DNA of 64,000 nt from an uncultured Chloroflexales bacterium (GTDB lineage Bacteria > Chloroflexota > Chloroflexia > Chloroflexales > Chloroflexaceae). The stretch lies in NCBI GenBank assembly GCA_937918935.1, contig CAKZSI010000015.1, positions 1 through 64,000 on the forward strand, in the 5' to 3' direction. A program made the translations under genes and the position numbers. The notes under the pieces were generated by a model. It saw only the letters and a list, made by a program, of their open reading frames with translations, searched no databases and was not told the origin of the DNA. Shown here piece after piece: positions 2,146 to 24,779 of this stretch (position 1 is its first letter; each line of letters opens with the position of its first letter).

Positions 2146-2175
2146 ACGTAGGGCGGAATTAATTCCGCCCTACGT
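2146..2175. repeat. 30-bp perfect palindrome abutting the CRISPR array
   Basis: ACGTAGGGCGGAATT followed directly by its reverse complement. It ends three bases before the first CRISPR repeat (2179), at what is inferred to be the distal (trailer) end. A partial direct copy (gggcggaattaat) precedes it at about 2124-2136. Confidence 0.8.
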
Positions 2176-2178
2176 CCA

Positions 2179-3545
2179 GTTTCAAACGCCTTCAGAGCGG
2201 GGCGGTGCGGCGTTGGAGCGACTGACTGGGCTTGTGTTCGACAGCGCTCTGAAGTTTCAAACCCCTTCAGAGCGGGGCGGTGCGGCGTTGCCAAGGGGGT
2301 GATAAACCCGCGAACCTTCCCAGTTTCCTGTTTCAAACGCCTTCAGAGCGGGGCGGTGCGGCGTTGAGTCGCCTGGTGGGGCTGGGGGAGCGTGACCATT
2401 GGGTTTCAAACCCCTTCAGAGCGGGGCAGTGCGGCGTTGCCGCCGAGCGGGCGGCGTGCCAGGCGGTGATAGGGCGTTTCAAACCCCTTCGATGCGGGGC
2501 GTTGAGGCCCTTGAGCAAACCAATGGGAAACTGGATCAAGGCCATCGCGTTTCAAACCCCTTCGATGCGGGGCGTTGAGGCCCTTCTTGTCAAGATCCGA
2601 CAGTGTGCCCCCGCTGCGGCAGGTTTCAAACCCCTTCGATGCGGGGCGTTGAGGCCCTTCGGGACACCGCCGGGAACAATTGTTTCCGGCACGGCGTTTC
2701 AAACCCCTTCGATGCGGGGCGTTGAGGCCCTTGTGCTGGTGGAGTGGACGACCGGGACGGAGCAGGTTGCGTTTCAAACCCCTTCGATGCGGGGCGTTGA
2801 GGCCCTTGTACACAATGAACAGTCCCCGCGGCGGAACCCGCCAAGTTTCAAACCCCTTCGATGCGGGGCGTTGAGGCCCTTTAGCCCTAGCACAGCGCCA
2901 CAAGTAGCGCCTTTCAAGTTTCAAACCCCTTCGATGCGGGGCGTTGAGGCCCTTGGCCCTGGAGGCGGAGGTTCACGATGCCACCCAGGTAGTTTCAAAC
3001 CCCTTCGATGCGGGGCGTTGAGGCCCTTGGTTCCGCGCACCGGACGATCTGGGTTCGACGAATATGTTTCAAACCCCTTCGATGCGGGGCGTTGAGGCCC
3101 TTGCGCGGATCTGGACTTCCAGTCCACGCCGCTGCTCTGGGTTTCAAACCCCTTCGATGCGGGGCGTTGAGGCCCTTGCGAGGCCAAGCCGCTGCAGGCA
3201 CGCTGGCCCACCGGGTTTCAAACCCCTTCGATGCGGGGCGTTGAGGCCCTTAACCACTGTTCCGAAGCGCGGGTGAGGATACCTATCACGTTTCAAACCC
3301 CTTCGATGCGGGGCGTTGAGGCCCTTAAGGAGCGTACCAAAATGGAGTTCTACTTCTGGTTGGCGTTTCAAACCCCTTCGATGCGGGGCGTTGAGGCCCT
3401 TTGGACATCCGCATGCCCAGCAACACCGGCGACTTTGTTTCAAACCCCTTCGATGCGGGGCGTTGAGGCCCTTGGAAAGGAGGAAGCAATGTACGTCGCA
3501 CGCTACACGTTTCAAACCCCTTCGATGCGGGGCGTTGAGGCCCTT
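2179..3545 (-). CRISPR. CRISPR array, 19 repeats of 37 bp with two repeat versions
   Basis: Repeats start at 2179, 2254, 2330, 2403 (version A) and 2476, 2549, 2623, 2696, 2771, 2845, 2918, 2992, 3066, 3141, 3215, 3290, 3365, 3437, 3509 (version B). The 18 spacers are 35-39 bp. Plus-strand repeats begin GTTTCAAACCCCTTC; version B continues GATGCGGGGCGTTGAGGCCC and version A continues AGAGCGGGGCGGTGCGGCG. Read on the minus strand, the repeat ends in GGGGTTTGAAAC. This resembles the ATTGAAA(C/G) 3' end that becomes the crRNA 5' handle, so transcription is inferred right to left with the leader near 3546-3706. All B copies appear identical. A copies vary (CGCC or CCCC at bases 9-12; one GCAG change), as expected for an old distal end. 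The array lies next to cas1, cas2 and the RT gene. Confidence 0.97.
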
Positions 3546-3706
3546 GGGGTCGCTCCCGCGAGGTCTGGCCTTTCGCCCGTCCTGATGACGAACGCGACGC
3601 CGGACCGGCGCCCCCCTTCGCTGTACCGGTCTTGCATGGCTGGCCTGGATCGGCTACCATCCCGGCTATGCCGACATTGTAGCAGGTCGCTGGTTGGAGG
3701 ACAACC
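3546..3706 (-). promoter_or_regulatory. putative CRISPR leader / divergent promoter region
   Basis: 161 bases between the last version-B repeat and the start codon of the WYL regulator. If the array is transcribed right to left, as the repeat 3' end suggests, this must hold the leader and promoter as well as the promoter of the divergent gene. No clear -35/-10 pair was recognised. The assignment is by position only. Confidence 0.4.
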
Positions 3707-5974
3707 ATGAATCGCTGGGCCATGGCCCTTGCTCAGACTCCACCGACGCTGCAGCGCCTGATCGCTGCGACGCAGCGGGTGAGCCTTCCCCGTGGCTGCT
3801 CGCCCGCCGAGCGCCTTCAGCGCTTGCGCACCGTCCTCTGCCGGCGGGCAGCCGTGCATGCGGTCTATTTTTCGCTGTCTGACGCAGAACAAGCGGCGCT
3901 GCAGGCGCTGCGCCACATCCGTCGTGGCCTCGCTCCGGCCGACCTCGCCGCCCGCTTTGGCCCCATCCGCCCTCTCGCCGCGTTGCGCGCCGACCGCACA
4001 CCGCGCACGCTCAGCGAGCGCCTGCTGCTCCTCGGCTGGCTCCTGCCGCGCCCCGCGGCGCGCAACCACCCGTTGCGCTATCTGCTGCCAGCCGAACTGC
4101 GCGCCTGGCTGCCGGCGCCGCTGCCCGCCACTCTCGACGCTGCGCCTGCATCCGCCGCCGCCGGCGCGGGGGGGGCATCCAGCGCGCCGGCGCCGCTGCC
4201 CGCCACTCTCGACGCTGCGCCATCCTGGCAAACCGCGCCTGACTCGGCTGCGCTGCCGACGCTCAACGCAGCAACGGTGATCCTCCTCGCCAGCGCCGAG
4301 CGGACGCTGCCGCTCCGCCGTGATGGCCGGCCCGCCGCCCGCGCGCTGCATACGCTGCGGCCGCGCCTCGCACCACTTCCCCCCGCCGAGGCGGATGCGC
4401 TGGTGCGCTGGCTGTTGCCGCTGCTGATCGACCTGGGCCTGCTTGCACCCCATGGCGGCGACGTCGTAGCTGCTCCTGGAGCCCGGCGCTTTCTGGCCGC
4501 CCCGCCTGCCGAGCGCCTGCATACGCTCCGCGCTGCCTGGGTGCGCGCTCCGCGTGGCGAGCACTGGCTACGTCAACTGCGGGTCAGTACGCGGGGGCTC
4601 GATTGGCCGGCGCTGCGCCGCCGCCTGCTGGCCTGGGCCGAGGCCCTGCCGCCCACAGCCGCCGCCGATCCCGCCAGCGGCCACGCGCTGCTCCACGCTG
4701 CGCTCGGCCCCCTGGCCGATGCCCATACCCACGGCCTGCGTCCCTCGCTCCGGCGCTCACCATGGTTGCCGCGCCGCGCCGCTGCGGTCTGGGCGGCTGC
4801 CTGCGCCGGACCCCTGGCCTGGCTCGGTGCACTCCCTGCCTCCGCCGTTGCCGGGTCCGACCCGCCAGCAGCGGAGAACTCGGGCGCGAACTGGCAGATC
4901 GATACCGCTGGCTTGCTCCACGTGCCACGCAATGCCGATCCGTCTGACCTGCTTGCGCTTGCACCCTTCGCCCGCTGGAGCCATCGAGCCGCTGGCTGTG
5001 AGGTCTTTACTCTCAACCGCGCCGCTCTCGCCGCAGCCACGTCACGGGGCCACGATCCGGCCCGCCTGCGCGCGTTGCTGGCGCGATGGGGCGCCATCCT
5101 GCCAGACGCGCTCGCGCCGTCTGGCGGGATGCGACTGCTTGCCCGTACTGTGCTGATCAGTGACCAGCCCGAGGACCTGGTCCGGGCGCTGCGCCAACGC
5201 TCCACCCGGCGCGCCATCGAGGCCCATCTGGCGCCCGGCGTGGCTCTGGTGGCGCCCGGGCGTGAGGCGGCACTGGTGCGCACCCTGGCCCGCGCTGGCC
5301 GCGCCGTGACCGCGCCACCCCCTCCGGCCATCGCCCCGCCGGCTAGCCTTACCCCGGCTGAGCAGGCGACCCTGCTGCTCGCCTGCGCCCACTATCGTGC
5401 CAGCCCGCCCGAGGGCGCCCCTCCCGGCCCGCGCGACGAGTTGCTGGCCCGGCTGCGCGCTGGCCTCCCCCCGGCGCTCGCCGCGGCAACCGACACGGCC
5501 CTGCTTGCCTTGAGTCCTGCAGCCTCCGTTGCGCCACCACCGCCCGGCCATCACCCTGCACCCGGTGCACCGCCACCACTGGCCACCCTGCTGACCATGC
5601 TGCGCACGGCGGCGCAGCGCCGTCGCGCGGTGCGGCTGCACTATCAGGGCCGTGATGACTCCACGCCCCGCGAACGCGCGGTCCGCCCGCTCCGCCTGGA
5701 ACGTCACGGCTCCTGGTGGTACCTCTACGCCTATTGCTTGCAGGCCTGCGCCGAGCGCTGTTTCCGCCTCGACCGGATCCATCACGCCGCGCTCCTCGAT
5801 CCGCGCCCAGCCGCGGATGACCGCCCCTCTACCGCCACATCGCCATCCCGACGCCAGCCGCCCGCCAGACGCACCCTCCGCAGCGCTGCCGGCCCGCCCG
5901 TCAGTCCTGCGCTGCGAGTGTGGCTGGCGGATGACCAGGGGCCTGGCGGTGCGGGCCGAGCTATAGAGGTGTAG
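3707..5974 (+). CDS. WYL-domain protein with XPB/helicase-type N-terminal region, CRISPR-associated regulator
   Basis: 755 residues; start chosen by the GGAGG ribosome site at 3695-3699. The N-terminal ~450 residues are helical with winged-helix-like stretches, the pattern of helicase XPB/Ssl2 N-terminal domain proteins (for example AALQALRHIRRGLAPADLAA). Residues ~635-700 form a WYL-type domain (RRAVRLHYQGRD, ERAVRPLRLERHGSWWYLYA, RCFRLDRI). WYL domains bind nucleic acid or nucleotide ligands and often regulate CRISPR and phage-defence operons. The gene is divergent from the array and convergent with cas2, which suits an array or adaptation regulator. An Ala/Pro-rich linker (~135-165) carries a tandem copy of APLPATLDAAP. 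Its action on this locus is inferred. Confidence 0.75.
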   Translation: MNRWAMALAQTPPTLQRLIAATQRVSLPRGCSPAERLQRLRTVLCRRAAVHAVYFSLSDAEQAALQALRHIRRGLAPADLAARFGPIRPLAALRADRTPRTLSERLLLLGWLLPRPAARNHPLRYLLPAELRAWLPAPLPATLDAAPASAAAGAGGASSAPAPLPATLDAAPSWQTAPDSAALPTLNAATVILLASAERTLPLRRDGRPAARALHTLRPRLAPLPPAEADALVRWLLPLLIDLGLLAPHGGDVVAAPGARRFLAAPPAERLHTLRAAWVRAPRGEHWLRQLRVSTRGLDWPALRRRLLAWAEALPPTAAADPASGHALLHAALGPLADAHTHGLRPSLRRSPWLPRRAAAVWAAACAGPLAWLGALPASAVAGSDPPAAENSGANWQIDTAGLLHVPRNADPSDLLALAPFARWSHRAAGCEVFTLNRAALAAATSRGHDPARLRALLARWGAILPDALAPSGGMRLLARTVLISDQPEDLVRALRQRSTRRAIEAHLAPGVALVAPGREAALVRTLARAGRAVTAPPPPAIAPPASLTPAEQATLLLACAHYRASPPEGAPPGPRDELLARLRAGLPPALAAATDTALLALSPAASVAPPPPGHHPAPGAPPPLATLLTMLRTAAQRRRAVRLHYQGRDDSTPRERAVRPLRLERHGSWWYLYAYCLQACAERCFRLDRIHHAALLDPRPAADDRPSTATSPSRRQPPARRTLRSAAGPPVSPALRVWLADDQGPGGAGRAIEV

Positions 5975-6022: not shown

Positions 6023-6298
6023 TCAAACCAGGTAATGGGTTGGCTCGCTACTTACCCGCCCGATGCCATAGATCGCGATGCGCTCGACCGCGTCCGCGTC
6101 CAGGCGGTAGCAGCGCACGCTGTCCACGTCCTGGTCGATCAACTCGCGCAGCTCGCGGCCCAGCCGGCTAAACTCGCCCGGGTTGAGTATGCACTCGAAG
6201 ACGCTGTACTGCACCCGCGTGCCATAGCCCTTGAGCAGCTTCATCACTTTCGTGCGCCGCTTATCGTCCACGATGTCGTAACTGATGATGGTAAACAT
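6023..6298 (-). CDS. cas2: CRISPR-associated endonuclease Cas2
   Basis: 91 residues, normal for the family. It begins MFTIISYDIVDDKRRTKVMK, the ferredoxin-fold first strand with the conserved Asp, followed by LLKGYGTRVQYSVFEC. Cas2 forms the central dimer of the Cas1-Cas2 integrase that inserts new spacers. It lies 12 bases downstream of cas1 and is the last gene of the minus-strand adaptation operon, convergent with the WYL gene. Confidence 0.96.
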   Translation of the reverse strand: MFTIISYDIVDDKRRTKVMKLLKGYGTRVQYSVFECILNPGEFSRLGRELRELIDQDVDSVRCYRLDADAVERIAIYGIGRVSSEPTHYLV

Positions 6299-6310
6299 AG
6301 GTGGTTCTTC

Positions 6311-7303
6311 TCAAGCAACATACCCGACATAGGCGGCCTGCTCACCACGAACGACGCGGGCCACCGCCCGGGCCTGGAGCAGGACCACACGGCGCAGCGG
6401 CGTCTGCTCGCCGGTGGGCAGCCGGACCGGGGCCTGCATCGCTGCTTCGTAGCGCGCGACGATCAACGCGCGCCCGCCGGCATCAAGATAGACTGCGTCG
6501 GGGCGCCGGGCGGGTCGCTCGAACTGCTCACGCTGCACCTCGCCCGCCTGGAGCAGGGCCAGCACGATGCGGTCGACCGCCAGGGGGCGAAACTCCTCCA
6601 TGAGGTCGAGGGCCAGTGAGGGCCGCCCGGCCTCGATCACGTGAAACACGCCGAAATACGGGTCCAGGCCGGTGAATTGTACGGCGGTGAGCACGTCGTG
6701 CAGCAGCAGGGTGTAGCCGAAGGAGAGCATGGCATTGACCGGGTCGGGCGGGGGGTAGAACTCGCGTCCCTGGAAGCCCCAGCTGGCCTGGAGCAGGGCT
6801 CGCCAGGCCCCAAAGTAGGCCGCCGCGCCCGCGCCCTCGTAGCCGCGCACAGCATCAATGTCGGCAGCCGCATCGATAGCCGCAACTGCATTGTCGATCT
6901 GGCCCAGCGCCGCCGTGGCGGCAGGCCAGCCTGCCCCGGCCAGCAGTGCGCGCTGGTTGGCCAGCTTGGCCCGTACTATCGCCCGGGCCAGCTCGAGCGA
7001 CCAGCCCGCATCGGTCACTCGCTGCATCTGAGCGAGGCGCAGCGCCCCGAAGCGTGACGGCCCGGCAGTGAGCGTGGCATAGTGCCGGCTGCCGCGCTGG
7101 TTGGTGAGCATCACCGGGATGCCTCGCCCGATCAGTTCTACCAGCAGCGCGGTGGACATCTGCACACCCCGGCCCATCAACACAACTTGATCGATCTTGT
7201 TCAGCGGGATCTCCTGCAAGGTCTTGCCCTCGCGAGTGATCAGCACCTGCTCGTCGCGCTTGCGTACCGTTACTCCCTGTTCCTGTACGTAGAGGGTCGC
7301 CAT
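6311..7303 (-). CDS. cas1: CRISPR-associated endonuclease/integrase Cas1
   Basis: 330 residues from MATLYVQEQG, preceded by AAGGAG at a good distance; the frame continues upstream only through repeat sequence. N-terminal beta domain (LYVQEQGVTVRKRDEQVLIT, EIPLNKIDQVVLMG) is followed by the helical catalytic domain with GAGAAAYFGAWRALL, DPVNAMLSFGYTLL and HVIEAGRPSLALDLMEEFRP, which hold the metal-binding Glu, His and Asp/Glu of the family. Cas1 catalyses spacer integration. It is not fused to the neighbouring reverse transcriptase; that enzyme is a separate gene 214 bases upstream, separated by palindromic repeats. Confidence 0.97.
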   Translation of the reverse strand: MATLYVQEQGVTVRKRDEQVLITREGKTLQEIPLNKIDQVVLMGRGVQMSTALLVELIGRGIPVMLTNQRGSRHYATLTAGPSRFGALRLAQMQRVTDAGWSLELARAIVRAKLANQRALLAGAGWPAATAALGQIDNAVAAIDAAADIDAVRGYEGAGAAAYFGAWRALLQASWGFQGREFYPPPDPVNAMLSFGYTLLLHDVLTAVQFTGLDPYFGVFHVIEAGRPSLALDLMEEFRPLAVDRIVLALLQAGEVQREQFERPARRPDAVYLDAGGRALIVARYEAAMQAPVRLPTGEQTPLRRVVLLQARAVARVVRGEQAAYVGYVA

Positions 7304-7359
7304 AATCCAGTGCTCCTTCTTGGGGAAGTCTGAGAGGTCCTGGCCCTTCCAGGAACCCG

Positions 7360-7487
7360 GGTTCCGCGCCCGGTTGGTGGAGCACGGGGAAACCAGCGCC
7401 TGATCCCGCTGATTCCCCGGGCCATTCTCCAAGTTCCGCGCCCGGTTGGTGGAGCACGGGGAAACCAGGTTTCCCCACGCCCCTGCC
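7360..7487. repeat. duplicated palindromic repeat between RT and cas1
   Basis: A segment containing gttccgcgcccggttggtgg and agcacggggaaaccag occurs twice (about 7371-7396 and 7433-7467). The second copy completes a GGGGAAACC-A-GGTTTCCCC palindrome (about 7456-7483). This belongs to the window-wide palindrome family and separates the RT stop from the cas1 start. Confidence 0.75.
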
Positions 7488-7517
7488 GGAGGGGCGTGTT
7501 TCGCCCCTTCGCCACTG

Positions 7518-8870
7518 CTACTCTGAGAAGCCCCGGCGGATCCGCCTCGCCCCGCGGCGGATGCGCTCGCCGGCCCGTTGTGACACGTCGCGCAGGGCGC
7601 GCTCGGCTTCCTCGAAGCTGGTTAGCCCTTCGCCGAGACGCGGGCCGCGGCGGCGCGGGGCCAGACTCTGGCCGAGGAACTCCAGACCGTCGGCGTAGGC
7701 GGCAATGCGGGTTTTGTTGTCATTGAGGGTCAGTCGCAGGGTTGCCAGTTGCCGGCGGGTCAACTCCAGGGCGCGGGCGGCCTCATCGCGCGAGGCGCAC
7801 ATGAGCACCAGGTCGTCCATAAAGCGCACCAGGCGCATCCCGTGGCTGGTCATCGCCAGGTCGAAGGGATGCAGGTAGATGTTGGCGAGCAGTGGCGAGA
7901 GCGCCCCGCCCTGCGGCGCGCCTCGGGGGCTGGAGGCGGCGCGCAGGCGCAGGGCCACTTCACCCGCAGCCACGGCGCCCGCCGCCAGCGCGCCGCCAAT
8001 CAGCAGGCGCTCCCGCCCGATGCGCTGGAGATGGGGGGCCAGCCGGCGCGCCCCTTCGAGCGCCGGCTGCACCAGGCTCGCCGCGGCAACGAGGCCGCGC
8101 AGATCCAGTCCCTGGCGCTGCGCCGCCCCATCGGGCCGTTCCCAGACCGCTGCGGCGTAGAGGTCGTCTTCAGGCGGCGCCAGCGGCGTGACCGGGGCTT
8201 CCGCCATGGCTTCGCGGATCAGCGCGCCGCCGCGGCGAACCAGGCGCGCCAGGCCAACCGGCTCAGGGGCCAGGGGCGCGTCTTCGGCGCCATGCAGCGC
8301 GCCTGCCTGCAACCACTGGCTGATCAGCCGCAGCACTGCTGGCTCGTCGATCCGCTGGCGGAGCAACCCCAGCAGAATGCGGTGATCAATTGTGTCGAAG
8401 TAACTGGCGATGTCGGCATCCACTGCCCAGCCCAGACCCTGGTCGGCGTAGCGCGCGACGCGGGCCACCGCCTCGGGCACACCCACGTACAGCCGGCAAC
8501 CGTAGGAACAATCGAGAAACAGCGGCTCGAAGAGCGGCTGCAGCACCTGTTGCACCGCCCGCTGCGCCACCCGGTCGCGGATGGCGAGGATAGCGATCGC
8601 CCGCTCGCCGCCGCTGGCCCTGGGAATGGTCACCCGGCGGGCCGGCAGCGGGCGATAGACGCCGGAGCGCAACTCGTCGGCGAGCGCCGTCATCTGCGCG
8701 CTCCATGCGGCCTCGAAATCGCAGAGCGTCACAGCGTCGACTCCGGCACTGCGTCCGCGCCGGGCCACCTGGATATTGCCGCGCACCCTGCGCCAGGCCA
8801 GCGTCAGATTTTCGACGCTCACCACCTGGTCGAGCAGGGCAGGGCCGGTGTGTCTGGGGAAGATTGGCAT
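7518..8870 (-). CDS. CRISPR-associated reverse transcriptase with large internal insertion
   Basis: 450 residues from MPIFPRHTGP, preceded by GGAG; upstream in-frame codons are repeat-derived. RT motifs in order: RT1/2 around residues 80-130 (RVTIPRASGGERAIAILAIR, CSYGCRLYVGVPEAV), catalytic DADIASYFDTIDH (151-163), GAPQGGALSPLLANIYLH (317-334), FMDD (350-353) in place of YADD, and EFLGQS near 405. Between the second and fourth blocks lies an extra ~120 residues (about 190-315) containing EDDLYAAAVWERPDG and an Ala/Gly-rich helical tail. There is no maturase X or HNH domain and no intron RNA was seen, so this is not a group II intron. Its place directly upstream of cas1-cas2 indicates acquisition of spacers from RNA, as known for RT-Cas1 systems. 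Confidence 0.92.
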   Translation of the reverse strand: MPIFPRHTGPALLDQVVSVENLTLAWRRVRGNIQVARRGRSAGVDAVTLCDFEAAWSAQMTALADELRSGVYRPLPARRVTIPRASGGERAIAILAIRDRVAQRAVQQVLQPLFEPLFLDCSYGCRLYVGVPEAVARVARYADQGLGWAVDADIASYFDTIDHRILLGLLRQRIDEPAVLRLISQWLQAGALHGAEDAPLAPEPVGLARLVRRGGALIREAMAEAPVTPLAPPEDDLYAAAVWERPDGAAQRQGLDLRGLVAAASLVQPALEGARRLAPHLQRIGRERLLIGGALAAGAVAAGEVALRLRAASSPRGAPQGGALSPLLANIYLHPFDLAMTSHGMRLVRFMDDLVLMCASRDEAARALELTRRQLATLRLTLNDNKTRIAAYADGLEFLGQSLAPRRRGPRLGEGLTSFEEAERALRDVSQRAGERIRRGARRIRRGFSE

Positions 8871-8946
8871 GGGAGCACTCCATGGCTCATAGATAAACAA
8901 GGCGCCTGTGGGACGGCCGCCCTCCCGGACCTTCCCATCGGGCAGA

Positions 8947-8975
8947 GGTGTGGGAAAACCAGGTTTCCCCACACC
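8947..8975. repeat. intergenic palindrome copy between SPFH and RT genes
   Basis: GGTGTGGGAAAACC-A-GGTTTCCCCACACC, 14-base arms with one mismatch; member of the palindrome family. It lies in the 114-base gap between the SPFH gene stop (8985) and the RT start (8870). It could fold in the operon transcript. Confidence 0.8.
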
Positions 8976-8984
8976 CCTGCCCAT

Positions 8985-10313
8985 TTACTCCGCCACCTCC
9001 AACCCCAGCACCCCCATCACGCGCGAGGCGCCGAGGCCCTGCTGGGCGCGCCAGGCCTCCAGCTTCTGCATCTGCTCGGCCATCAGGGCCTCGTGGCGCA
9101 GATGCAGTTCGAGCAGGGCCTGATCGTGCTGGGCGCGGCGCTCGGCGGCGATCTCGGCCTGGCGGGCGCGCTGCTCGGCGATCTGCTGCTGGATGGCTGC
9201 CAGGGCCAGGGCACGCTCGTTCTGGTGCGTCTGGGCCGCGAGGACCACGTCGCCTTCGGCGCGGACGAGGCCCTGCTGCGCCTCCAGCACCCGCACGTGC
9301 TGGTCGGTCTGGTGGGCCTCGAGCAACTGGCGCTGCACCCGCTCCCACTCGCCCTGGAGCCGGGCCTGTTCGGCCTGCCAGAGTTGCTCCTCACGGGCGA
9401 TCTCGGCGGTCTGAGCGCGGATCTGGGCCAGAACAATCTCCAGCCGCGCGGCCAGGGCCGCCTGTTGCACCTCGGCCTGCTGGGCCAGCAGGCGCTCGCG
9501 GGCCGTGGCGGCCGTGGCCGCCAGCCGCAGGCCATGCTCGCGCTCCTCGACCACCGAGCGCGCCTCCAGCCGCTGCAGCGTGGCGCGATGCTCGGCCGCT
9601 TCCACCCGCAGCGCCTCGTCAATTCGCGCCGCGGCGACGGTGGCCGCGGTGGCGGCCTCGATCTGCCGTTCGTCGCCCTGGCGCTCAACCACACGCACGC
9701 TGATGATCTCCAGCCCGGCAAGCGCCGGGTCGGTACGCAGGCGCTCGAGCACGGCCAGGGCCGGACCGTCCATCCCGCCTGCCTCGCCGTCACGCCCGGT
9801 GAGCGCGGCGTGGCTATGCCGTTCGATGTAGGCCAGCGTCGCCGCCCGCGTCGCCGTCGCCAGGGCGTCGAGCGGCTGGCGATGAGCGGCGATCAGCCGC
9901 GGGTCGCTCACCGCCACGTCCACTACCAGCCACAGGCGCACGCGCCACTTGTCGGCGCTGAAGCCCTCGACCGGACCCACCGGCGCCTGCCGGCGCCGCG
10001 CGTCCACCCACTGCACCAGCACCGCGCCGGGCTGGCCCCACAGCCAGTAACTGCCCGGCCCATATACCGCCGGCTCTCCGCCGGGCAGATGGACCACGGC
10101 CCAGGCGCCCGGCGGCACCACGAGCTGGGTGGTCAGACCAAACACCTGCCGCGGGAGCGCCTGCGGCAACGTGGCCAGGCCCGTCACGAAGCGGGGCAAC
10201 GGCAGATCGCGCCCCATCCCCTCGGCGCTCACCTCACCCCTGGCAACCGCCAGCCCTTCAACAAGCGCCTCTTCCACCGCGGCGCAGGTTTCGGTAACGA
10301 TCTGGCGGGTCAT
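8985..10313 (-). CDS. SPFH/band-7 domain protein with long coiled coil
   Basis: 442 residues from MTRQIVTETC, chosen because AAGGAGG stands just upstream (about 10319-10325). Residues ~60-230 resemble the SPFH/band-7 fold (QLVVPPGAWAVVHLPGGEPA, YGPGSYWLWGQPG, LEIISVRVVERQGDERQIEA). Residues ~220-420 are an unbroken, highly charged Gln/Glu/Ala/Arg coiled coil. No N-terminal membrane helix is seen, unlike flotillin or HflK. It lies between the RNase H and RT genes on the same strand, 43 bases after the RNase H stop. Its job in this operon is unknown; a scaffold or membrane-associated ring is inferred from the family. Confidence 0.75.
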   Translation of the reverse strand: MTRQIVTETCAAVEEALVEGLAVARGEVSAEGMGRDLPLPRFVTGLATLPQALPRQVFGLTTQLVVPPGAWAVVHLPGGEPAVYGPGSYWLWGQPGAVLVQWVDARRRQAPVGPVEGFSADKWRVRLWLVVDVAVSDPRLIAAHRQPLDALATATRAATLAYIERHSHAALTGRDGEAGGMDGPALAVLERLRTDPALAGLEIISVRVVERQGDERQIEAATAATVAAARIDEALRVEAAEHRATLQRLEARSVVEEREHGLRLAATAATARERLLAQQAEVQQAALAARLEIVLAQIRAQTAEIAREEQLWQAEQARLQGEWERVQRQLLEAHQTDQHVRVLEAQQGLVRAEGDVVLAAQTHQNERALALAAIQQQIAEQRARQAEIAAERRAQHDQALLELHLRHEALMAEQMQKLEAWRAQQGLGASRVMGVLGLEVAE

Positions 10314-10356
10314 GGCAAGCCTCCTTGTTTCAGATTGCGGAGCTGTGATGCTCGCG

Positions 10357-10803
10357 TTACACCTGATGGCGACGAAATCCCACGATTGCCTGGCACCCGC
10401 CGAGGGCCTCCCAGGCCAGAGCGTCGGCAAGCCGATTCAACTCGCGGGGAATGGCGATCAGTTCCAGCGCGCTCAGGCGCGTACACAGCGACCGGGCCTG
10501 CTCGAACAACCGCCGTATCCTCTCGGCACGCACCGCGGCTCGCCCGCAGAGTTGCTCAATCACTACCTGGCTGTCACTCATGCAGCGCACTGCCACCCCC
10601 GGATAGTGGGTAAGCATGAGAGTGAGACCGGCGATCACCGCCTGGTATTCGGCCTCATGGTTCGTGGCGGCCGGCGCCCGCAGGCAGCGCGTGCAGAGCA
10701 GATTGCCGCGGGGGCCGCGCACCACCACGCCGATCCCCGCGACGCCCCGCGGCGGAGATCCGGGTGTGCCATCCACCTGCACCAGAAGTAATCCGTAGTT
10801 CAT
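10357..10803 (-). CDS. RNase HI-family ribonuclease
   Basis: 148 residues from MNYGLLLVQVDG; the start overlaps the stop of the upstream gene in an ATGA arrangement, supporting translational coupling. All four RNase H carboxylates are present: D11 (VQVDG), E52 (NHEAEYQAV), D77 (CMSDSQVV) and D127 (LNRLADALA). The fold degrades RNA in RNA-DNA hybrids. It is short and of the plant-type/RnhA-like branch. It sits in the same minus-strand run as a reverse transcriptase and cas1-cas2. It could therefore remove the RNA template from RT products, but it might also be an unrelated housekeeping gene that happens to lie upstream. Confidence 0.88.
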   Translation of the reverse strand: MNYGLLLVQVDGTPGSPPRGVAGIGVVVRGPRGNLLCTRCLRAPAATNHEAEYQAVIAGLTLMLTHYPGVAVRCMSDSQVVIEQLCGRAAVRAERIRRLFEQARSLCTRLSALELIAIPRELNRLADALAWEALGGCQAIVGFRRHQV

Positions 10804-10985
10804 CGCAGCATCCAGGCCAGGCTCGCCAGGAGCATAGCAATAAGCAGCAGGAGCACGGCGAAACAGCCCCGCAGCAGCTGCCGCAGCGAAAGACGCGGCA
10901 GGCGAACGCGGCGCGTGTCGAGCGCCAGCGCGCTCACCCCGAGCAGCGCCAGGACGATTGCTCCGCTCCAGAAACACCAGGCCAT
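10800..10985 (-). CDS. small membrane protein, two hydrophobic segments
   Basis: 61 residues from MAWCFWSGAI, with GGAGAGGG upstream. A first hydrophobic segment (about residues 4-22) and a second (about 41-58, GCFAVLLLLIAMLLASLAWM) are joined by a basic loop (DTRRVRLPRLSLRQLLR). It overlaps the RNase H start by four bases and appears to open the minus-strand run that ends with cas2. Function unknown. Confidence 0.55.
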   Translation of the reverse strand: MAWCFWSGAIVLALLGVSALALDTRRVRLPRLSLRQLLRGCFAVLLLLIAMLLASLAWMLR

Positions 10986-12027: not shown

Positions 12028-12210
12028 GCGCATCCATCCGCGTCACCAGAGGTGGGGAACCCGAGCTTCCGTGACTCAGACAAGGTTTGCGAAAGACCGC
12101 GCCCTCCGCACCTCCCTCGAACGGTAATCCACAAGGCCGCAGCCGACCAGCAAAGCAACTGTCAAGCAGGCATACTCCGGTCTGAAACGTTCGAAACTCC
12201 CGTACACCGC

Positions 12211-16114: not shown

Positions 16115-16498
16115 CTAACGCCGCATTCGCGCCACGTCACGCAGGGCCTGCAGGTTCACCACCTCGGCCACCTCGTAGCGCGTCGGCACGCTCCCCTCAA
16201 CAGGTCGTATGTGGAGGATCGCGGGAAAATGGCCAAGTCGGCCATGGATCTCAGCAATCAGCGCCAGGGCCACCGGGGCCAGCGCGGGCGGGTTGAGCAC
16301 AATTGGAGTCGTCTGCCACTGCAGAGAAGTAAGATTAGCAGCGTCGGCCAGCTCGCTAGCCACCTCGGCCAGCGGGCGAGCGCGGTTGATCTGGGCAGCC
16401 AGATCGCGCACGTCTGGCGCCTCGCCAACGATCCCGGCAACGGTTGCCAACTGAGCTTCGGTGAGCGGATGCGAGTAGTTCAACACGAGTACCGGCAT
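16115..16498 (-). CDS. small CRISPR-associated protein, Csx15-like
   Basis: 127 residues from MPVLVLNYSHPLT, with GGAG upstream; the frame extends further but without support. The first strand LVLNYSHPLTEAQLATVAGI and the alternating strand/helix pattern suggest a small Rossmann-like domain. The NYSHPLT start recalls Csx15 of type III loci, a small CARF-related protein linked to cyclic-oligoadenylate handling. It is the last gene of a three-gene minus-strand module, 18 bases after the membrane CARF gene. The Csx15 label is from memory of the pattern and is moderately secure. Confidence 0.55.
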   Translation of the reverse strand: MPVLVLNYSHPLTEAQLATVAGIVGEAPDVRDLAAQINRARPLAEVASELADAANLTSLQWQTTPIVLNPPALAPVALALIAEIHGRLGHFPAILHIRPVEGSVPTRYEVAEVVNLQALRDVARMRR

Positions 16499-16515
16499 AG
16501 CTATCAGGCTCCTTC

Positions 16516-17241
16516 TCAGGGTGTGCGCACCACAACCTGCATCGCGCAACTCTCCGCAGAGCGCAGCGGATCGCCATGGTCATTGCGGAGCGCAACCCAG
16601 TACTGCACGGGCACGCCCGCGTCGAGGCAGGCGAGCAGAATGCCCGCGGTCATCACCTTCGTGCCGCCGGTGATGTCGGCGATCAGCGGCCAGGCATCGC
16701 CTATCGGCACGGCCTGGCTGATCGCCTCGCGCACCTTCGCATAGACCTGGTCGGCACGGAGCACATCGCCAAGCAACACGACGTGGGGCGTCACGTTCTG
16801 TTCCAACAGGTTCTGTTTCAGGTCGCGAAACCTTTCGCTATTGGCAACCGAGGGCGATGCCAGCAACCAGCAATGACGCAGGGTCGCATTGCGCCGGTGC
16901 CAGGCAATAATATCCCTATCGGCGGCCTGCGGGTTGGCGCTTACCGGCAGAATCAGGCCGTGATGCGGCGGCGCCTGCCGATCCGGCTCCACCGTCGTTT
17001 GTTCTCTACCTTTGATCCCCCGCAGCAAACGCTGGAACCCGACGATCACAAAGGCAAAGATCATTACCGCGCCGGCAATCAGCGCGATCAGAAACTGCGG
17101 CGTGGCCCCGAACACCCCGGTCAACAATTCGTAGACGGCGTTGCCGAGAATCGCCAGGGCCAGCGAGCCGATCAGAAACAGCGCTGGCACGCGGGTCTCC
17201 AGGAACAGGCGCAACAGGTCGTTCAGTGAGAACTGGTTCAT
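16516..17241 (-). CDS. membrane-anchored CARF-domain protein (Cam1-like)
   Basis: 241 residues from MNQFSLNDLL; AGGA upstream. Two membrane helices at about residues 18-40 (VPALFLIGSLALAILGNAVY) and 48-70 (FLIALIAGAVMIFAFVIVGF), then a soluble CARF-type Rossmann domain with HGLILPVSAN (~94-103), CWLLASPSVANSERF and the ligand-loop ADITGGTKVMTAGI (188-201). CARF domains bind cyclic oligoadenylates made by Cas10. Cam1 couples one membrane helix to a CARF domain and depolarises the membrane; this protein has two helices and a longer linker, so it may be a variant. It lies between the Csx15-like and Cas02710 genes on the same strand. Confidence 0.8.
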   Translation of the reverse strand: MNQFSLNDLLRLFLETRVPALFLIGSLALAILGNAVYELLTGVFGATPQFLIALIAGAVMIFAFVIVGFQRLLRGIKGREQTTVEPDRQAPPHHGLILPVSANPQAADRDIIAWHRRNATLRHCWLLASPSVANSERFRDLKQNLLEQNVTPHVVLLGDVLRADQVYAKVREAISQAVPIGDAWPLIADITGGTKVMTAGILLACLDAGVPVQYWVALRNDHGDPLRSAESCAMQVVVRTP

Positions 17242-17505
17242 TAATTTTCCTGAAGTGAACAGAGCCGGTTTGAGGGGGATGGGGAAACCAGGTTTCCCCA
17301 TCCCCCTGCCTGATGGGCGCCTGGCAATCCGGGGTAGTTGGGCCGACTGAAGTCGGCCCTACGTCTACCCGTTTCATCTCGCATAAGGCGGCTCAAGCTA
17401 TGCGAGGAAGGGTCAAGCTGCCTGCTGTGACAGGGCAGCGGATGGCCGACGTAACTACCGCAGAGCGGGGGCATGACCCGCAGGCGCCGGATGATCCTGG
17501 CGTTA
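17242..17505. repeat. 33-bp perfect palindrome in the gap between CARF genes
   Basis: Positions 17274-17306 form a perfect inverted repeat (GGGGGATGGGGAAACC arms around one base), a member of the window-wide family. The rest of the gap (17307-17505) holds no gene. Confidence 0.8.
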
Positions 17506-18882
17506 TCAAAGCGCGGCGCGCCACGGAAGAGCCACGAAGCGGCTGGTCTGCTCCCAGGCGGCCCGGTCGCGACTAAGCAACGCCAGGAGACGATCAAGCA
17601 ACTCCTCCACCACCTCGGCAAACCCCCGATACTCGTCATGCGAGATCAGGCGGTAGCCGTGGGCGAGGAGGGACGTATTGCGCGCGTCGCTGCGAGCTTC
17701 GATCCGGCTAATGTCGTAACCTCGGACCAGAGGATCATCAAGCGCCGCCAGGAGCATGTACCCCACAAAGAGGCCGATGGCGCGGTCAGGCAAGGGATAC
17801 GGACGACGGCGCCCCTGATCGCTCTGGATCCGTCTGTAACGTTTTTCCAGATCGGTGACACGGCTTTGTGCCCGGGTGAAATCCGGACGCTCACTCAACA
17901 CGCCCCAGGTGGCCAGGCGATGCTGGCCTATCAATTCCAGACAGCGATACAGCAGCAACGCCGCAGTATCGTAACGCCCCTGATCCTCGCGGCGTCTGGC
18001 GCTGGCGTAGAGCGAGCCGAGCAGCGCCAGCACCGCGTCCGGATCGGCAAGCGTAGCCAGGGTTTCAGGGCCGCGACTGGCTGCCTGGCCGGCGACATGT
18101 TCCAGACGCTCCAGGGTCCGTTGCTGGGCCGTGATAGTTGCGGCAAGCTCGTTCTCCCCCGTCGCGGAGGCGAGCCACGCTGCCAGTCTGTCGCGGGCCG
18201 TCGCCAGATCGAAGACATCCCAGGCGGCATACGCGCCAGCGAGGAGCGCCAGTGCGGCGTAGCGCGGCCCGTCGGGTGAAGGCACGCGCCGCCCCAGGTC
18301 AGCGAAGATCCGCTCCGCGTTCGCATAGTCGTGGGCGGCATAGAGGCGGGCCGCCTCGGCGGCCTCCAGGTCGCCAAACACAACATACGGATCAGGCGGC
18401 GGCGCGAGATGCTGGGAGCCTGGACGGGGGACCTTCCGCTCGGCGCCATCGCCGGCGCTGACATATTCGCTCTCGACGTACAGCGTTGGCAGGTTCAACA
18501 CATACGCGGCCTTGGCCAGGCCGATGGACATTGGCTTCGTGCCGCCGGTCACGTCAACCGCCAGGCGCTCGCGCGGCAGATCCCTCCAGGCTTCGATGAT
18601 CTTGCGCAACGAGCGATAGATCTGCAAAGGATCGGTATGATCCTCGTCGTAACGTTGCCAGTTCTGCGGAACGTTATCAAGCCGGAGCTTGCCAGCCACC
18701 TTATCGGGCATCGCATGCGAATCGGGCGTCAGTAAAAAGGCGACTCGCTGCGGTTCCAGCGCGCCGATCAGCAGCGCCGCCGTGGTCGGCTGAAGGGTGC
18801 CAGGAACAACCAGCCCGTCGAATGTCGTTCCACCACAGCGCTCGCGGAAGAGGCGCAATTCGTCGGCGAAGTCCACGTCCAT
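17506..18882 (-). CDS. CARF-HEPN ribonuclease of the TIGR02710 (Cas02710) family
   Basis: 458 residues from MDVDFADELR; start fixed by AGGAGG directly upstream. The N-terminal CARF domain has the ligand loop VDVTGGTKPMSIGLAKAA (VTGGTK at 111-116). The middle is TPR-like helical (~165-330). The C-terminal HEPN domain carries the catalytic R-x6-H pattern: R401-N402 and H408 in SDARNTSLLAHGYRL, the form usual for Cas02710. On binding cyclic oligoadenylate such proteins cut RNA unspecifically. It is the first gene of the three-gene ancillary module. Confidence 0.9.
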   Translation of the reverse strand: MDVDFADELRLFRERCGGTTFDGLVVPGTLQPTTAALLIGALEPQRVAFLLTPDSHAMPDKVAGKLRLDNVPQNWQRYDEDHTDPLQIYRSLRKIIEAWRDLPRERLAVDVTGGTKPMSIGLAKAAYVLNLPTLYVESEYVSAGDGAERKVPRPGSQHLAPPPDPYVVFGDLEAAEAARLYAAHDYANAERIFADLGRRVPSPDGPRYAALALLAGAYAAWDVFDLATARDRLAAWLASATGENELAATITAQQRTLERLEHVAGQAASRGPETLATLADPDAVLALLGSLYASARRREDQGRYDTAALLLYRCLELIGQHRLATWGVLSERPDFTRAQSRVTDLEKRYRRIQSDQGRRRPYPLPDRAIGLFVGYMLLAALDDPLVRGYDISRIEARSDARNTSLLAHGYRLISHDEYRGFAEVVEELLDRLLALLSRDRAAWEQTSRFVALPWRAAL

Positions 18883-19039
18883 ATCGGCCTCCTGGGATGC
18901 TACAATGCCAGGGAAAGAGCAGGGAGAACCGGGTATCCGCTTACCCGCCCGAGAATCCTCGGGAAGCAGTAGCAGTGTGCGCAACCCTCCAGGTTGCGGT
19001 CAGGTTATCAAGGATCGGAGCCACCACCAGGACACGCCT

Positions 19040-20559: not shown

Positions 20560-21237
20560 CTATCCCCGCTTCGCAGCGCGCCGCACATCGAGGATGGTTC
20601 TGCCTGTTTTCGCGTGGCGGATGCCCACGACCTCCACACGCGCGGTATCTTTGTTCACAACAAACTTCGGCGTGTTCGCATCACGTTTTAGCACGGCAAT
20701 GACCTTGTCTGTGGTGTGATCAGGCACCTCGATGACGAAATAGTTCTCATCACTCTCGATGACCTTGCCGGTGAAGACACTCCCCACTTGCAGAGCAATA
20801 CCTGAAGCCGGCTTTGCCGACGCTGACGCGCTACTCTGCGCAGGTGTCGTTTTCTCAGGATTGGAAGGTTGCCTGGCTGCGGGTTCCGGTGCTGACGCCC
20901 CACTGTCGGCTGCCGTGCGCCTGGGCGCGTGTTCGGGGCATTTGCGGTAATAGCGCATCAGGCGGATAGCCCAGCCAAGGGTCTGGATCAGGTCTTCGTA
21001 TTCCATGCCCCGCAGATGGTGCTGGCAGGCCCTCTGCAGGTTGCGGTAGTAGTCGAGGGTCTGGCGCGAGCGGATCACCGCCTGGCCGTTGGTGACGATG
21101 GCCTGCAAATAGTCGAAAAAGGCCTTCGGGTCGCGCTTGCTGCGCAGGTAGGCCAGGGCCTTCTGGGCCTCGTTGTGATCCACGCGCGCACCAGCCAGGT
21201 CGGCGGCCAGGAGTTCGGCAGTTTGAAACAGGGTCAT
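20560..21237 (-). CDS. CRISPR-operon protein with helical N-terminus and S1-like C-terminus
   Basis: 225 residues from MTLFQTAELL; the start overlaps the preceding stop by four bases (ATGA). Residues 1-105 are helical and charged (KALAYLRSKRDPKAFFDYLQ, RQTLDYYRNLQRACQHHLRG). Then a Pro/Ser/Ala-rich linker, then ~75 residues with an S1/OB-like pattern (LQVGSVFTGKVIESDENYFV, DKVIAVLKRD). No family name is recognised. It ends the type III-D effector operon, so a role in RNA binding within or beside the complex is plausible. Confidence 0.65.
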   Translation of the reverse strand: MTLFQTAELLAADLAGARVDHNEAQKALAYLRSKRDPKAFFDYLQAIVTNGQAVIRSRQTLDYYRNLQRACQHHLRGMEYEDLIQTLGWAIRLMRYYRKCPEHAPRRTAADSGASAPEPAARQPSNPEKTTPAQSSASASAKPASGIALQVGSVFTGKVIESDENYFVIEVPDHTTDKVIAVLKRDANTPKFVVNKDTARVEVVGIRHAKTGRTILDVRRAAKRG

Positions 21238-21665
21238 GAATGCACCACCTCGGTTGTTCGCTGGCTGAAAATAAGCTCGTGCCGATAGATGATGGTCGGA
21301 TCGATCATAGGATGCTTCCTGATGGGATGAAAACAATATGCTTGCTTGTCTGGTTTAAAGTTGGGTGGGCGCTCGTAGAGATAGAATTTTCTCGTCTCAC
21401 CATTCTCGTCTAGAAACTCGATATAGTGATAACCCATTTCATTGGCGCCATGTCGCTGAGGAACGATGGCCATGGGGGGAGAAGTTAATTGAGAAAAAAG
21501 CATCTCAACGATATCAAAAAACCGCTTTGACTATAACTGCACGTCTTTCTCGGCATGATTATTGTTGTGAAACAAGTACTCATTGCGAATATTGACAAGC
21601 TCAAGCAAGCCGTCTAAATCTTCAACTCCCTGGAAAATCGAGGTCTGGTTGTTTTTTTGGCTCAT
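21234..21665 (-). pseudogene. HEPN-like ORF interrupted by one in-frame TAG
   Basis: Reading from ATG at 21665 gives 44 codons (MSQKNNQTSI...EKDVQL), a TAG at 21531-21533, then in the same frame SKRFFDIVEM and on to a stop at 21234: 143 codons around one amber. It overlaps its upstream neighbour (stop/start ATGA at 21662-21665) and its downstream neighbour (ATGA at 21234-21237), as expected of one intact operon gene. The piece before the stop holds VNIRNEYLFHNNNH, an R-N...H pattern like the HEPN active site; the piece after continues the helix (KRFFDIVEMLFSQL). Base composition is AT-rich, unlike the neighbours. It may be a broken gene, a sequence error, or a readthrough/split gene; reinitiation at 21503 would give an 89-residue protein. 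Confidence 0.6.
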
Positions 21666-22330: not shown

Positions 22331-23299
22331 TTAATAATTCCTATCCGGGCATCCCCGATCCTCCCGCGGCCAGTGCAAGGTCTCGGCCAGACGTGTAAGT
22401 TGCGGCTCAAGCACCAGTCCTTCCGCGCGCGCGGCGGCAATCAGGGGCGCCACCTCGAGCGGCGCGGTGCCGGCGTCGAAGTCGGTGTAGCGCGCCTGCG
22501 GATCATCGCGCGTCAGGCGCGGCTCAAGCACCTCAATCGTCCCCAGGCAGGCCGGTTTGCCGCCGCCGAGCTTGGGCCATAGCCGCGGCTCGCCCAGACC
22601 CAGGGCGATCAGGATCAAGCCCAGTTCGCCCGGCGTCAGGTTGCTGAAGTCCATGCGCAGATCGAAGCGACTCCCGACATCACAGGCTTCCAGCGGCAGG
22701 TCGACCTTTGCCAGCTTGCCGTGCATGTAGAACTTGCGTCCCCGCGGGGTGCGCCCGTCGAAGTAAGTGTCTACCGACTCGGGTCGCGGACGGAAGAGTT
22801 GCGGCGTCGGGACAGGGATAACCTTCCCTTGCCGTAGAACGGCGTCCGAAAAGCGCACCGCGCCCAGGTACCCCAGCGCACCGAAGAGTCGCGCGGCAGG
22901 ATCGAGTTGATCGACCGAGCGTGATGGAAGCATATTGCGTGGTATGTCTCGTGACCTTGTGATATGGACTGCCGAAGGGCTGATGGCCTCGACAATACTG
23001 CGGATACAACCCTTGAGCGAGGTGGCCGGAATGGCCGGAACGCCGCCGGTGCGGAAGTGCCCCTTGACCAGGGGATACTGGCGATCGCCCGGAACCTGTT
23101 CCAGAATGCCCGAGGCGACGTGTACCGGCGAGCAGGCTACGATGACCGCCTGGAGCGTGCCGCTTAAGGTGTCAGATTTGTACTGGTGGTGACCAACAGG
23201 TGTCGCCAGGTTCTGTCGTCCCTCCGGCAATGGCACAAACGCATATGGTTTGGGAAGAGGAGGCTGCTGCGGGCCGCGCCCGCGGTCGCGGTTCGTCAT
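22331..23299 (-). CDS. type III RAMP protein, Cas7 group (Csm3-like), distal
   Basis: 322 residues from MTNRDRGRGP. RAMP features: PAIPATSLKGCIRSIVEAIS (the loop and helix after the first strand), FGALGYLGAVRFSDAV, MDFSNLTPGELGLILIALGL, and the Gly-rich WPKLGGGKPACLGTIEV. It is longer and more diverged than the classical Csm3 of this operon and is probably the terminal backbone subunit. The start overlaps the stop of the Csx19-like gene by four bases. Confidence 0.85.
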   Translation of the reverse strand: MTNRDRGRGPQQPPLPKPYAFVPLPEGRQNLATPVGHHQYKSDTLSGTLQAVIVACSPVHVASGILEQVPGDRQYPLVKGHFRTGGVPAIPATSLKGCIRSIVEAISPSAVHITRSRDIPRNMLPSRSVDQLDPAARLFGALGYLGAVRFSDAVLRQGKVIPVPTPQLFRPRPESVDTYFDGRTPRGRKFYMHGKLAKVDLPLEACDVGSRFDLRMDFSNLTPGELGLILIALGLGEPRLWPKLGGGKPACLGTIEVLEPRLTRDDPQARYTDFDAGTAPLEVAPLIAAARAEGLVLEPQLTRLAETLHWPREDRGCPDRNY

Positions 23300-23751
23300 G
23301 GTGTCACCTCGGGGTGGCTATAGCGCACCAGTTGCGCGGCGCCATTGGGCGCGTAATAGGTCAGGTACGTCAGCGGGGGATACTGGCCGGTCTGGATCAT
23401 CTTGCGCACGGGATGCTTTTCCACGTCCCACGCTTCGCCCACGGTCTGCGCTCCTGCGATGCTGAGCGGCTGCTCACTGAGCACCAGCACGTCGTAGGCC
23501 CCGTCGTCGCGCCGCTTCCAGCGCACCTCGGCGCGGGACGAAAAGATGTGCCCAAAGTCGCCGCGCAGGTCAAGGTCCTCCGGCCTGCCGAGGGCCTTGA
23601 CCGGGCGCAGATTGTCGGTCCCCTTGTCAGGATCGAGATCCCACAGCGCCGCGCCGCCGAAGCTCCAGCAGGGCAGAGTGACGACCTCGCGCACCAGTTC
23701 GTGAATGCGCGCGGCGTCGGCCCGGGCGATCCGGTACAGGTAGCCCTTCAT
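23296..23751 (-). CDS. Csx19-like protein of type III-D
   Basis: 151 residues. FSSRAEVRWKRRDDGAYDVL and LWDLDPDKGTDNLR give a mixed alpha/beta pattern like Csx19 (TIGR03984), an accessory protein found in type III-D loci. It overlaps both neighbours by four bases, so it is translated as part of the effector operon. The assignment relies on size, position and a short motif. Confidence 0.55.
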   Translation of the reverse strand: MKGYLYRIARADAARIHELVREVVTLPCWSFGGAALWDLDPDKGTDNLRPVKALGRPEDLDLRGDFGHIFSSRAEVRWKRRDDGAYDVLVLSEQPLSIAGAQTVGEAWDVEKHPVRKMIQTGQYPPLTYLTYYAPNGAAQLVRYSHPEVTP

Positions 23752-24779
23752 AGGCCGACCTCCCGGCGCCAGGCGGGCATACAGGCTCTCCAGATGGCGC
23801 GAACCTGCTCGTTGCCCGTGGCAGTAAGGCTTACGCCCATGATCTCATCGGGCTGATAAGCCAGTCCTTCGGGAAGATCGGCCAGATCATCCTCGCGCGG
23901 CGGCAGGGCGTAGCCCTGGTAGCGGCCATCGGCGCACAGCGCGCCCAGGCCGGCCAGTTTGCCCGCTGGCGCCACCTCGCGCCCGTCGAGCAGGCGCAGC
24001 GCCCCGCTCGTCAGTTCGCAGGTCGGGTAGAAGATACGCAGGGAATCGAAGGTCATTTTCACCCGCCCCAGACCGCGCGACTTGCCGAAGCCGATGCCCA
24101 CGCGCCCCTCGGCCAGATCGCGCAGGGCCAGGCCCAGCAACCCCAGTTGGGCCAGGGTCAGATTCTTGAAGTCAATGCGGCTGGCGAAGGCGCCGCCCAC
24201 CACGGTTTCGTAGTTGAAGGGGCCGAACGCGACCGAGCCGTAGATGCGGTCAATCGCCACGCCGTTGCGCTCCTCGATGAGCACCTCGCCGGTCGGATAG
24301 GCGTCGGCAAAGCGCACCCGCCCGGCCAGACTGGTGTGGCCGAAGATCTGGCTCACGAACGAGGAGCGACGGTAGATCAGGGCCGTATCGCCAGCAGTGT
24401 TGCCATTACGCAGTTCCTCGAAGTAGATCCCTGAAGAGAAACGCAGTTCATCGCCGCCTCGCTCATAAGGCTCGTAGCGCCTCTTTTCGACCAGCGGGTT
24501 ATCGGCCAGTGGCGGGATGAACTCGTCATCGCCATGGCGCTGGCGGGCCAGGTCGTAACGGGTCGGGCCGTCCAGCGAACGACAGATTCGTTCGGCCTGG
24601 GCACGGATCACGCCTTTGAGCGATGGACCGGGGATGTAGATCTGCCCGCGGCTGCGCACGAACTCCATATCCGGCAGGGTCGGGTCGGCGCCGCCGCTCT
24701 CGCCGGCCTTGATCAGGATCGGCCCATCGGGAGCGATGGTGAAGCGGATGGTTCCCTCAAGAAAGGTTGCCTTGTGCAT
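23748..24779 (-). CDS. type III RAMP protein, Cas7 group (Csm3-like)
   Basis: 343 residues from MHKATFLEGT. First RAMP strand ILIKAGESGGADPTLPDMEF, then YIPGPSLKGVIRAQAERICR, FGHTSLAGRVRFADA, and the C-terminal Gly-rich loop EGRVGIGFGKSRGLGRVKM. It contains a ~60-residue insert after the first helix, and a C-terminal extension (~275-343) beyond the RAMP core. It probably forms one segment of the crRNA backbone. Six bases separate it from the next upstream gene. Confidence 0.9.
   Translation of the reverse strand: MHKATFLEGTIRFTIAPDGPILIKAGESGGADPTLPDMEFVRSRGQIYIPGPSLKGVIRAQAERICRSLDGPTRYDLARQRHGDDEFIPPLADNPLVEKRRYEPYERGGDELRFSSGIYFEELRNGNTAGDTALIYRRSSFVSQIFGHTSLAGRVRFADAYPTGEVLIEERNGVAIDRIYGSVAFGPFNYETVVGGAFASRIDFKNLTLAQLGLLGLALRDLAEGRVGIGFGKSRGLGRVKMTFDSLRIFYPTCELTSGALRLLDGREVAPAGKLAGLGALCADGRYQGYALPPREDDLADLPEGLAYQPDEIMGVSLTATGNEQVRAIWRACMPAWRREVGL

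Follow-up and report, generated by a model that had tools for sequence, protein, structure and literature searches.

The gene row and its order in relatives

The stretch of DNA analysed here (the window, 64,000 nucleotides of contig 15 in the 4.6 Mb genome of an uncultured member of the Chloroflexales, phylum Chloroflexota) carries on the minus strand, read from 10985 down to 6023, six genes for a small membrane protein, a ribonuclease H (RNase H), an SPFH-domain protein, a reverse transcriptase (RT), Cas1 and Cas2 (Table 1). The row had been predicted from the nucleotide letters, and gene calls and family searches bore it out, the latter confirming all members except the SPFH protein and the small membrane protein. 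It shows the marks of an RT-containing type III adaptation module, namely an RT with an FMDD motif at 214 bases from cas1, matches to the cas families, and type III effector genes and a clustered regularly interspaced short palindromic repeat (CRISPR) array at the same locus. The six genes are best explained as the spacer-acquiring part, or adaptation module, of an RT-using type III-D CRISPR system. The comparison of gene content and phylogeny given below shows the RNase H to be one lineage that travels with CRISPR RT-cas1-cas2 in the Chloroflexota, and it strongly supports a functional link between the RNase H and the RT-Cas1-Cas2 module.

The nearest named relatives in our scans were an uncultured Chloroflexi bin (L117), Chloroflexi bacterium OHK40 (L119) and Candidatus (Ca.) Chloroploca (L118, L139). 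Chloroflexus, Roseiflexus, OHK40 and others share this gene order, from the membrane protein through RNase H, SPFH, RT and cas1 to cas2. The spacing in relatives narrows to as little as a 4-base overlap between the genes for membrane protein and RNase H (an overlap also present in the window), another 4-base overlap between RNase H and SPFH, and 15 bases from SPFH to RT. Where the SPFH gene is absent or has moved, RNase H and RT lie 3 to 7 bases apart (7 in Ca. Chloroploca, 3 in Oscillochloris), and in several Anaerolineae the RNase H gene is situated between cas1 and cas2, overlapping the latter or ending 1-7 bases before it. At one locus (L120, i.e. contig 62 of genome G027) the end of the SPFH gene alone remains between RNase H and RT, a remnant that reads as a recent loss.

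The window itself has longer gaps of 114 bases (SPFH/RT) and 214 bases (RT/cas1), which are real and, as had been noted before, contain palindromes. These belong to an interspersed element around GGGGAAACCNGGTTTCCCC that occupies both gaps and is found near the genes of this region, at window positions 1, 1467, 7451, 8945 and 11192. The original prediction had cautioned that one transcript is not proved, which stands for this genome; a single transcript is nevertheless likely, because in relatives the genes overlap or lie only 3-15 bases apart.

Co-occurrence of RNase H and RT-cas1

Among named genomes, the RNase H gene was present in 31/31 Chloroflexota RT-cas1 loci with enough flanking sequence and in 0/12 assessable RT-cas1 loci of Poribacteria, Acidobacteria, Bacteroidota and others. 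Across 82 genomes of the order, an RVT_3-type RNase H (a match at E 1e-13 or better) was found in 28 of the 32 genomes with an RT and in 1 of the 50 without (p=1.4e-16, uncorrected for kinship); the two sets share genomes, and their counts are not independent. The RT-free genome in question (G029) has its RNase H beside cas1, and the RT-bearing genomes that lack one have an RT that is broken (G039, G040) or truncated at the end of its contig (G020, G057). An additional, unlinked match occurs in one of the 29 RNase H-bearing genomes (G003). Within the family (41 genomes), 19 of 24 RNase H matches adjoin an RT and 3 adjoin a cas1 for which no RT was found (G029, G024, G026); the remaining 2 are a decayed copy next to the membrane protein (G013) and a weak, unrelated match (G003 contig 148).

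These counts reject a chance neighbourhood. An association limited to one genus is likewise rejected, since it was found in Chloroflexales, Herpetosiphon and Anaerolineae. Typical Chloroflexota RT loci also turned up on contigs labelled Chromatiaceae (L121, with the same layout as L126) and Gracilibacteria (L137), both of which are probably misbinned. Rather than lying mostly away from RT-cas1 in relatives, the outcome that the original prediction had named as speaking against it, the RNase H and SPFH genes occur almost solely at RT-cas1 loci.

The RNase H lineage

The RNase H matches PF13456 (RVT_3) at 69.9 bits, with a curated cut-off of 21.6 (E 2e-19), and the four catalytic acids that had been read in it before (D11, E52, D77 and D127; DEDD) proved invariant in a 13-sequence alignment. 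In a tree with 19 other Chloroflexota RNases H, all CRISPR-linked ones (37/37) form one group (support 98/96). The ratio of nonsynonymous to synonymous substitution (dN/dS), relative to two congeners, is 0.14-0.18 for the RNase H, 0.14-0.18 for the RT and 0.13-0.14 for the SPFH protein; the short membrane protein has a ratio of 0.29-0.50. The RNase H is under purifying selection and retains its catalytic acids.

On the tree of the RTs, whose deepest branches are unresolved, at least 4 changes of the RNase H label are needed, in part owing to cut loci; the RNase H may have joined one RT lineage once or may have moved between two. A search of plasmid proteins with one of the RNases H gave only a match of 34% and no lead.

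The gene could in principle be an ordinary housekeeping RNase HI that, like the SPFH gene, adjoins a CRISPR locus by chance, and the lack of any detected PF00075 RNase HI in the genus of the window would leave it free to serve the cell. Set against this are the restriction of strong matches to RT-cas1 loci, the absence of the gene from nearly all RT-free genomes, the separate clade of the CRISPR-linked proteins, and at least 5 genomes of the same family (G001, G033, G035-G037) in which neither of the two RNase HI types searched was found, so that we regard this explanation as extremely improbable. Nor can a role as stand-in for a lost housekeeping RNase HI explain the gene in general, for the CRISPR RNase H occurs both with and without a PF00075 enzyme: because four genera (Chloroflexus, Ca. 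Chloroploca, Roseiflexus and Herpetosiphon) hold a PF00075 RNase HI in addition, it is not just a replacement.

The reverse transcriptase

The RT is closest to group II intron RTs (GsI-IIC), and its D352 and D353 are invariant in 31 aligned RTs. It contains an insert of about 115 residues (about 194-312) in which one helix (about 287-312) is strongly hydrophobic: its 19-residue Kyte-Doolittle maximum ranges from 1.3 to 2.2 over the 31 RTs, whereas the remainder of these proteins does not exceed 1.35. The insert is also found in Poribacteria RTs without an RNase H, and the hydrophobic helix is conserved across all 31, those of Poribacteria included. It is a possible membrane anchor; equally possible is that the helix is buried.

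The SPFH protein and the membrane

No Pfam match (at 0.01) and no NCBIfam match was obtained for the SPFH protein, and a profile search with it returned only the stomatin PH1511, weakly (E 0.2) although over the right region. The predicted structure, on the other hand, consists of an SPFH beta domain (about 51-213, confidently modelled) and a helix of about 210 residues, and superposes on the SPFH domain of stomatin with Z 14.5 (2.2 A over 107 residues), with further matches to HflK/C, erlin, flotillin and prohibitin. The assignment to the SPFH/band-7 proteins made earlier is in this way confirmed by the match to solved structures: as modelled, a genuine SPFH fold leads into a long helix, and the alternative of an unrelated coiled coil is rejected by the fold match.

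All 12 SPFH matches in the family are located at RT-cas1 loci, and the strong matches in general are limited to such loci. Weak matches to its profile in two other Chloroflexota (G229, G085) sit away from RNase H-cas loci and seem to reflect remote similarity to SPFH proteins or coiled coils. At an Anaerolineales RT locus (L162), a distant SPFH protein (2041-3621) has a C-terminal stretch that by eye resembles a ubiquitin-conjugating (E2) fold (PPEYPxxPP). Another unknown protein is encoded there between SPFH and RT (about 3629-4583), and in Herpetosiphon aurantiacus (L140, 9040-10020) an unknown protein of about 320 residues occupies the same place.

The SPFH gene is present at 17 of the 31 Chloroflexota RT-cas1 loci. 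Its absence from 14/31, its divergent placement in Ca. Chloroploca, and the presence in the same system of a gene for a CARF protein with membrane helices (CARF-TM) are what one would expect if the SPFH and membrane proteins made up a separate unit of membrane defence or signalling (e.g. answering CARF-TM signals) outside spacer acquisition. We consider this doubtful, though a serious candidate, given that the usual place of the SPFH gene is inside the operon, in the order RNase H-SPFH-RT with the 4-base overlap and 15-base gap of relatives, and that the small membrane protein goes with the RNase H where SPFH is absent. This two-helix protein carries a WC...RGC pattern that related loci also conserve ahead of their RNase H or RT gene. 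Taken together, the hydrophobic RT helix, the small two-helix protein and the SPFH protein hint at a membrane-bound complex; the first two lend some support to the membrane localisation that had been suggested before, while stopping short of showing it.

A proposed route from RNA to spacer

In green non-sulfur bacteria and related groups, the making of immune memory from RNA is the probable task of the CRISPR RT-cas1-cas2 modules. That these nearly always have an RNase H of their own, and often a scaffold-like SPFH gene as well, suggests that removal of the RNA template is built into the making of that memory. Retrons use a host RNase H for the maturation of their complementary DNA (cDNA), and retroviral RTs carry an RNase H of their own, so that recruitment of an RNase H by an RT is a plausible solution. 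We favour, as a probable though far from secure reading, an RT-Cas1-Cas2 adaptation in which a dedicated RNase H strips the RNA from the hybrid made by the RT, by which the DNA spacer is made or completed. The RT would copy fragments of captured transcripts into cDNA, the RNase H would nick and remove the RNA strand of the RNA-cDNA hybrid, after which the RT itself or a polymerase of the host, possibly with residual RNA as primer, would complete the second DNA strand. Cas1-Cas2 would then insert the duplex into the array, from which CRISPR RNAs (crRNAs) would direct the Cas10 effector. More tentatively, the RT helix and the small two-helix protein might hold the complex at the membrane, with the SPFH protein, of a fold that forms rings and cages elsewhere, as an optional scaffold.

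Several observations count against this proposal. For the RT-Cas1 of Marinomonas, the favoured route is the direct integration of 3'-tailed RNA or RNA-cDNA with no prior action of RNase H; in favour of the proposal, the same paper names RNase H digestion with subsequent second-strand synthesis as an option that is not completely excluded (PMC11014452). The RNase H could also act after integration or on other hybrids. Furthermore, at two RT loci truncated by the ends of their contigs (L142, L145) the usual upstream position shows no RNase H, and the SPFH gene is missing from about half of the loci. The original prediction held in so far as co-occurrence ties the RNase H to RT-Cas1-Cas2, and its claim for the SPFH protein is the weaker one.

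The main rival to prior RNA removal places the RNase H after integration: Cas1-Cas2 would insert RNA or RNA-cDNA, the RNase H would clear the ribonucleotides from the array, and a repair polymerase would complete repeat and spacer. The direct integration of tailed RNA and of RNA-cDNA duplex by RT-Cas1/Cas2 (PMC11014452) argues for it and the linkage evidence fits it equally well; yet the ordinary RNase HI present in many of these genomes could do this work without a dedicated gene, and the Marinomonas route may not apply, given that RT and Cas1 are two distinct proteins in these loci. On balance we find it unlikely. Alternatively, the RNase H could be a quality filter that degrades R-loops of the host, hybrids of crRNA with DNA or excess cDNA hybrids and thereby curbs self spacers or toxic hybrids. 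An RT acting on cellular RNA does produce unwanted hybrids, and the RNase H tracks the presence of the RT; its position so close to cas1 and cas2 in Anaerolineae nonetheless points to the acquisition step, and the RT-cas1 loci of other phyla manage without an RNase H, which makes such a filter quite improbable.

The removal of RNA before integration, as we favour it, can be extended to a membrane-tethered adaptation machine of the Chloroflexota, in which the RNase H yields true double-stranded DNA spacers by a pathway different from the direct RNA integration of RT-Cas1 fusions, and an SPFH assembly and the RT helix organise the process at the membrane. This extended form is speculative, and we think it rather unlikely as a whole.

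The type III-D system around the module

The interval considered originally (6023-10985) omits the rest of the system, i.e. the array, the WYL gene and the effector and ancillary genes between 16115 and 30151 (Table 1). All four RAMP matches of the genome fall inside the window, which makes this the only type III system found in it. Beside a second cas1 of the same genome (contig 14) there was no match to the RNase H, SPFH protein or RT. On the plus strand (11095-16045), genes for an FHA/winged-helix regulator, a double serine/threonine kinase and a Uma2 nuclease-fold protein split the effector part from the adaptation part in this genome.

Table 1. Genes and repeats of the type III-D CRISPR system in the window
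Feature	Position	Strand	Basis or remark
CRISPR array, about 19 repeats, two repeat variants, period 72-76	about 2175..3600		downstream of cas2
WYL-domain protein, facing cas2	3707..5974	+	its cluster in 29 related loci
cas2, 91 amino acids (aa)	6023..6298	-	CRISPR_Cas2 (PF09827) 8e-25
cas1, 330 aa	6311..7303	-	Cas_Cas1 (PF01867) 1e-83
Mini-array: two identical 36-base repeats (7361-7396, 7433-7468), one 36-base spacer	7361..7468		in RT/cas1 gap
Reverse transcriptase, group II intron-type, separate from Cas1, FMDD motif	7518..8870	-	RVT_1 2e-26
SPFH-domain protein, 442 aa	8985..10313	-	predicted structure
RNase H, RVT_3 type (PF13456), 148 aa, catalytic D11 E52 D77 D127	10357..10803	-	family search
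Small membrane protein, 61 aa, two hydrophobic helices	10800..10985	-	adaptation operon start; conserved WC...RGC pattern in relatives
Csx15	16115..16549	-	family search
CARF protein with membrane helices (CARF8-TM)	16516..17301	-	family search
CARF-HEPN ribonuclease (Csx1/Csm6)	17506..18984	-	family search
Csx21, type III-D associated	20560..21336	-	family search
Cas7-type RAMP (Csm3/Cas7 III-D)	22331..23299	-	family search
Cas7-type RAMP	23748..24779	-	family search
Cas7-type RAMP	24786..25625	-	family search
Cas5 of type III-D (Csx10 family)	26089..27252	-	family search
RAMP protein	27249..27926	-	family search
Cas10	27926..30151	-	family search

The repeat variants of the array are arranged in blocks, a few copies ending in GGTGCGGCGTTG being followed by about 15 that end in TTGAGGCCCTT. 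The repeat of the mini-array is absent elsewhere in the genome. A second perfect 36-base direct repeat, around 39 bases, is present inside the WYL gene (4111-4221), in an extra stretch that relatives do not have. The periods of the two (72 and 75) are like that of the array, and both resemble spacers integrated off target with duplication of the target site (neo-CRISPR); the one in the WYL gene could also stem from slippage in GC-rich sequence. A 36-base repeat in three copies, which differs from the usual CRISPR type, was also seen in the 2.6 kb cas1-cas2 interval of a Roseiflexus bin (L124, 8858-9037).

Significance and comparison with known systems

By what route a DNA spacer arises from RNA is not yet settled; for one RT-Cas1 fusion, RNA has been shown to be integrated directly (PMC11014452). 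A phylum-wide lineage that keeps an RNase H with RT, cas1 and cas2 is a natural system in which to study the RNase H plus second-strand route, with cultivable members such as Chloroflexus islandicus. A matched set of RT, RNase H and Cas1-Cas2 might also improve transcriptional recorders, and the hydrophobic helix conserved in the RT prompts one to ask whether spacers are acquired at the membrane.

An RNase H or SPFH partner is not mentioned in the main texts of Toro et al. 2017 (PMC5541045), Silas et al. 2017 (PMC5513706), Toro et al. 2018 (PMC6013744), the 2025 classification (PMC12669027) or the myRT paper (PMC8934634). Nor was either found as part of this clade in the wider open-text literature; supplements and subscription papers were outside its scope and may hold an earlier mention. 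Within that scope, the statement that no system with this gene set had been described still holds.

The individual components nevertheless have known relatives. The SPFH protein shares with stomatin, HflK/C, erlin, flotillin and prohibitin the SPFH fold followed by a long helix, but differs from them in having no Band 7 sequence match and no obvious N-terminal membrane segment. For the RNase H, the nearest solved structure is the mycobacterial-type RNase HI at the N-terminus of Rv2228c (PDB 3hst; PF13456), which has the same catalytic acids, whereas the ordinary Chloroflexota relatives of this type are unlinked to CRISPR and fall outside the CRISPR clade. RT and RNase H in one polypeptide, as in retroviruses, were not seen in the mapped loci, where the two are separate genes. 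With respect to the RT, the likeness is to RT-CRISPR-9, a clade with 3 records and no complete operon, which has a Chloroflexi host and a group II intron-type RT separate from Cas1 (PMC5541045); the comparison is by phylum and separate RT. At the level of the whole system, the type III-B module of Marinomonas mediterranea likewise ties RT, Cas1 and Cas2 to a type III effector, but there the RT is fused to Cas1 and RNase H figures just as an added reagent or in an alternative pathway (PMC11014452).

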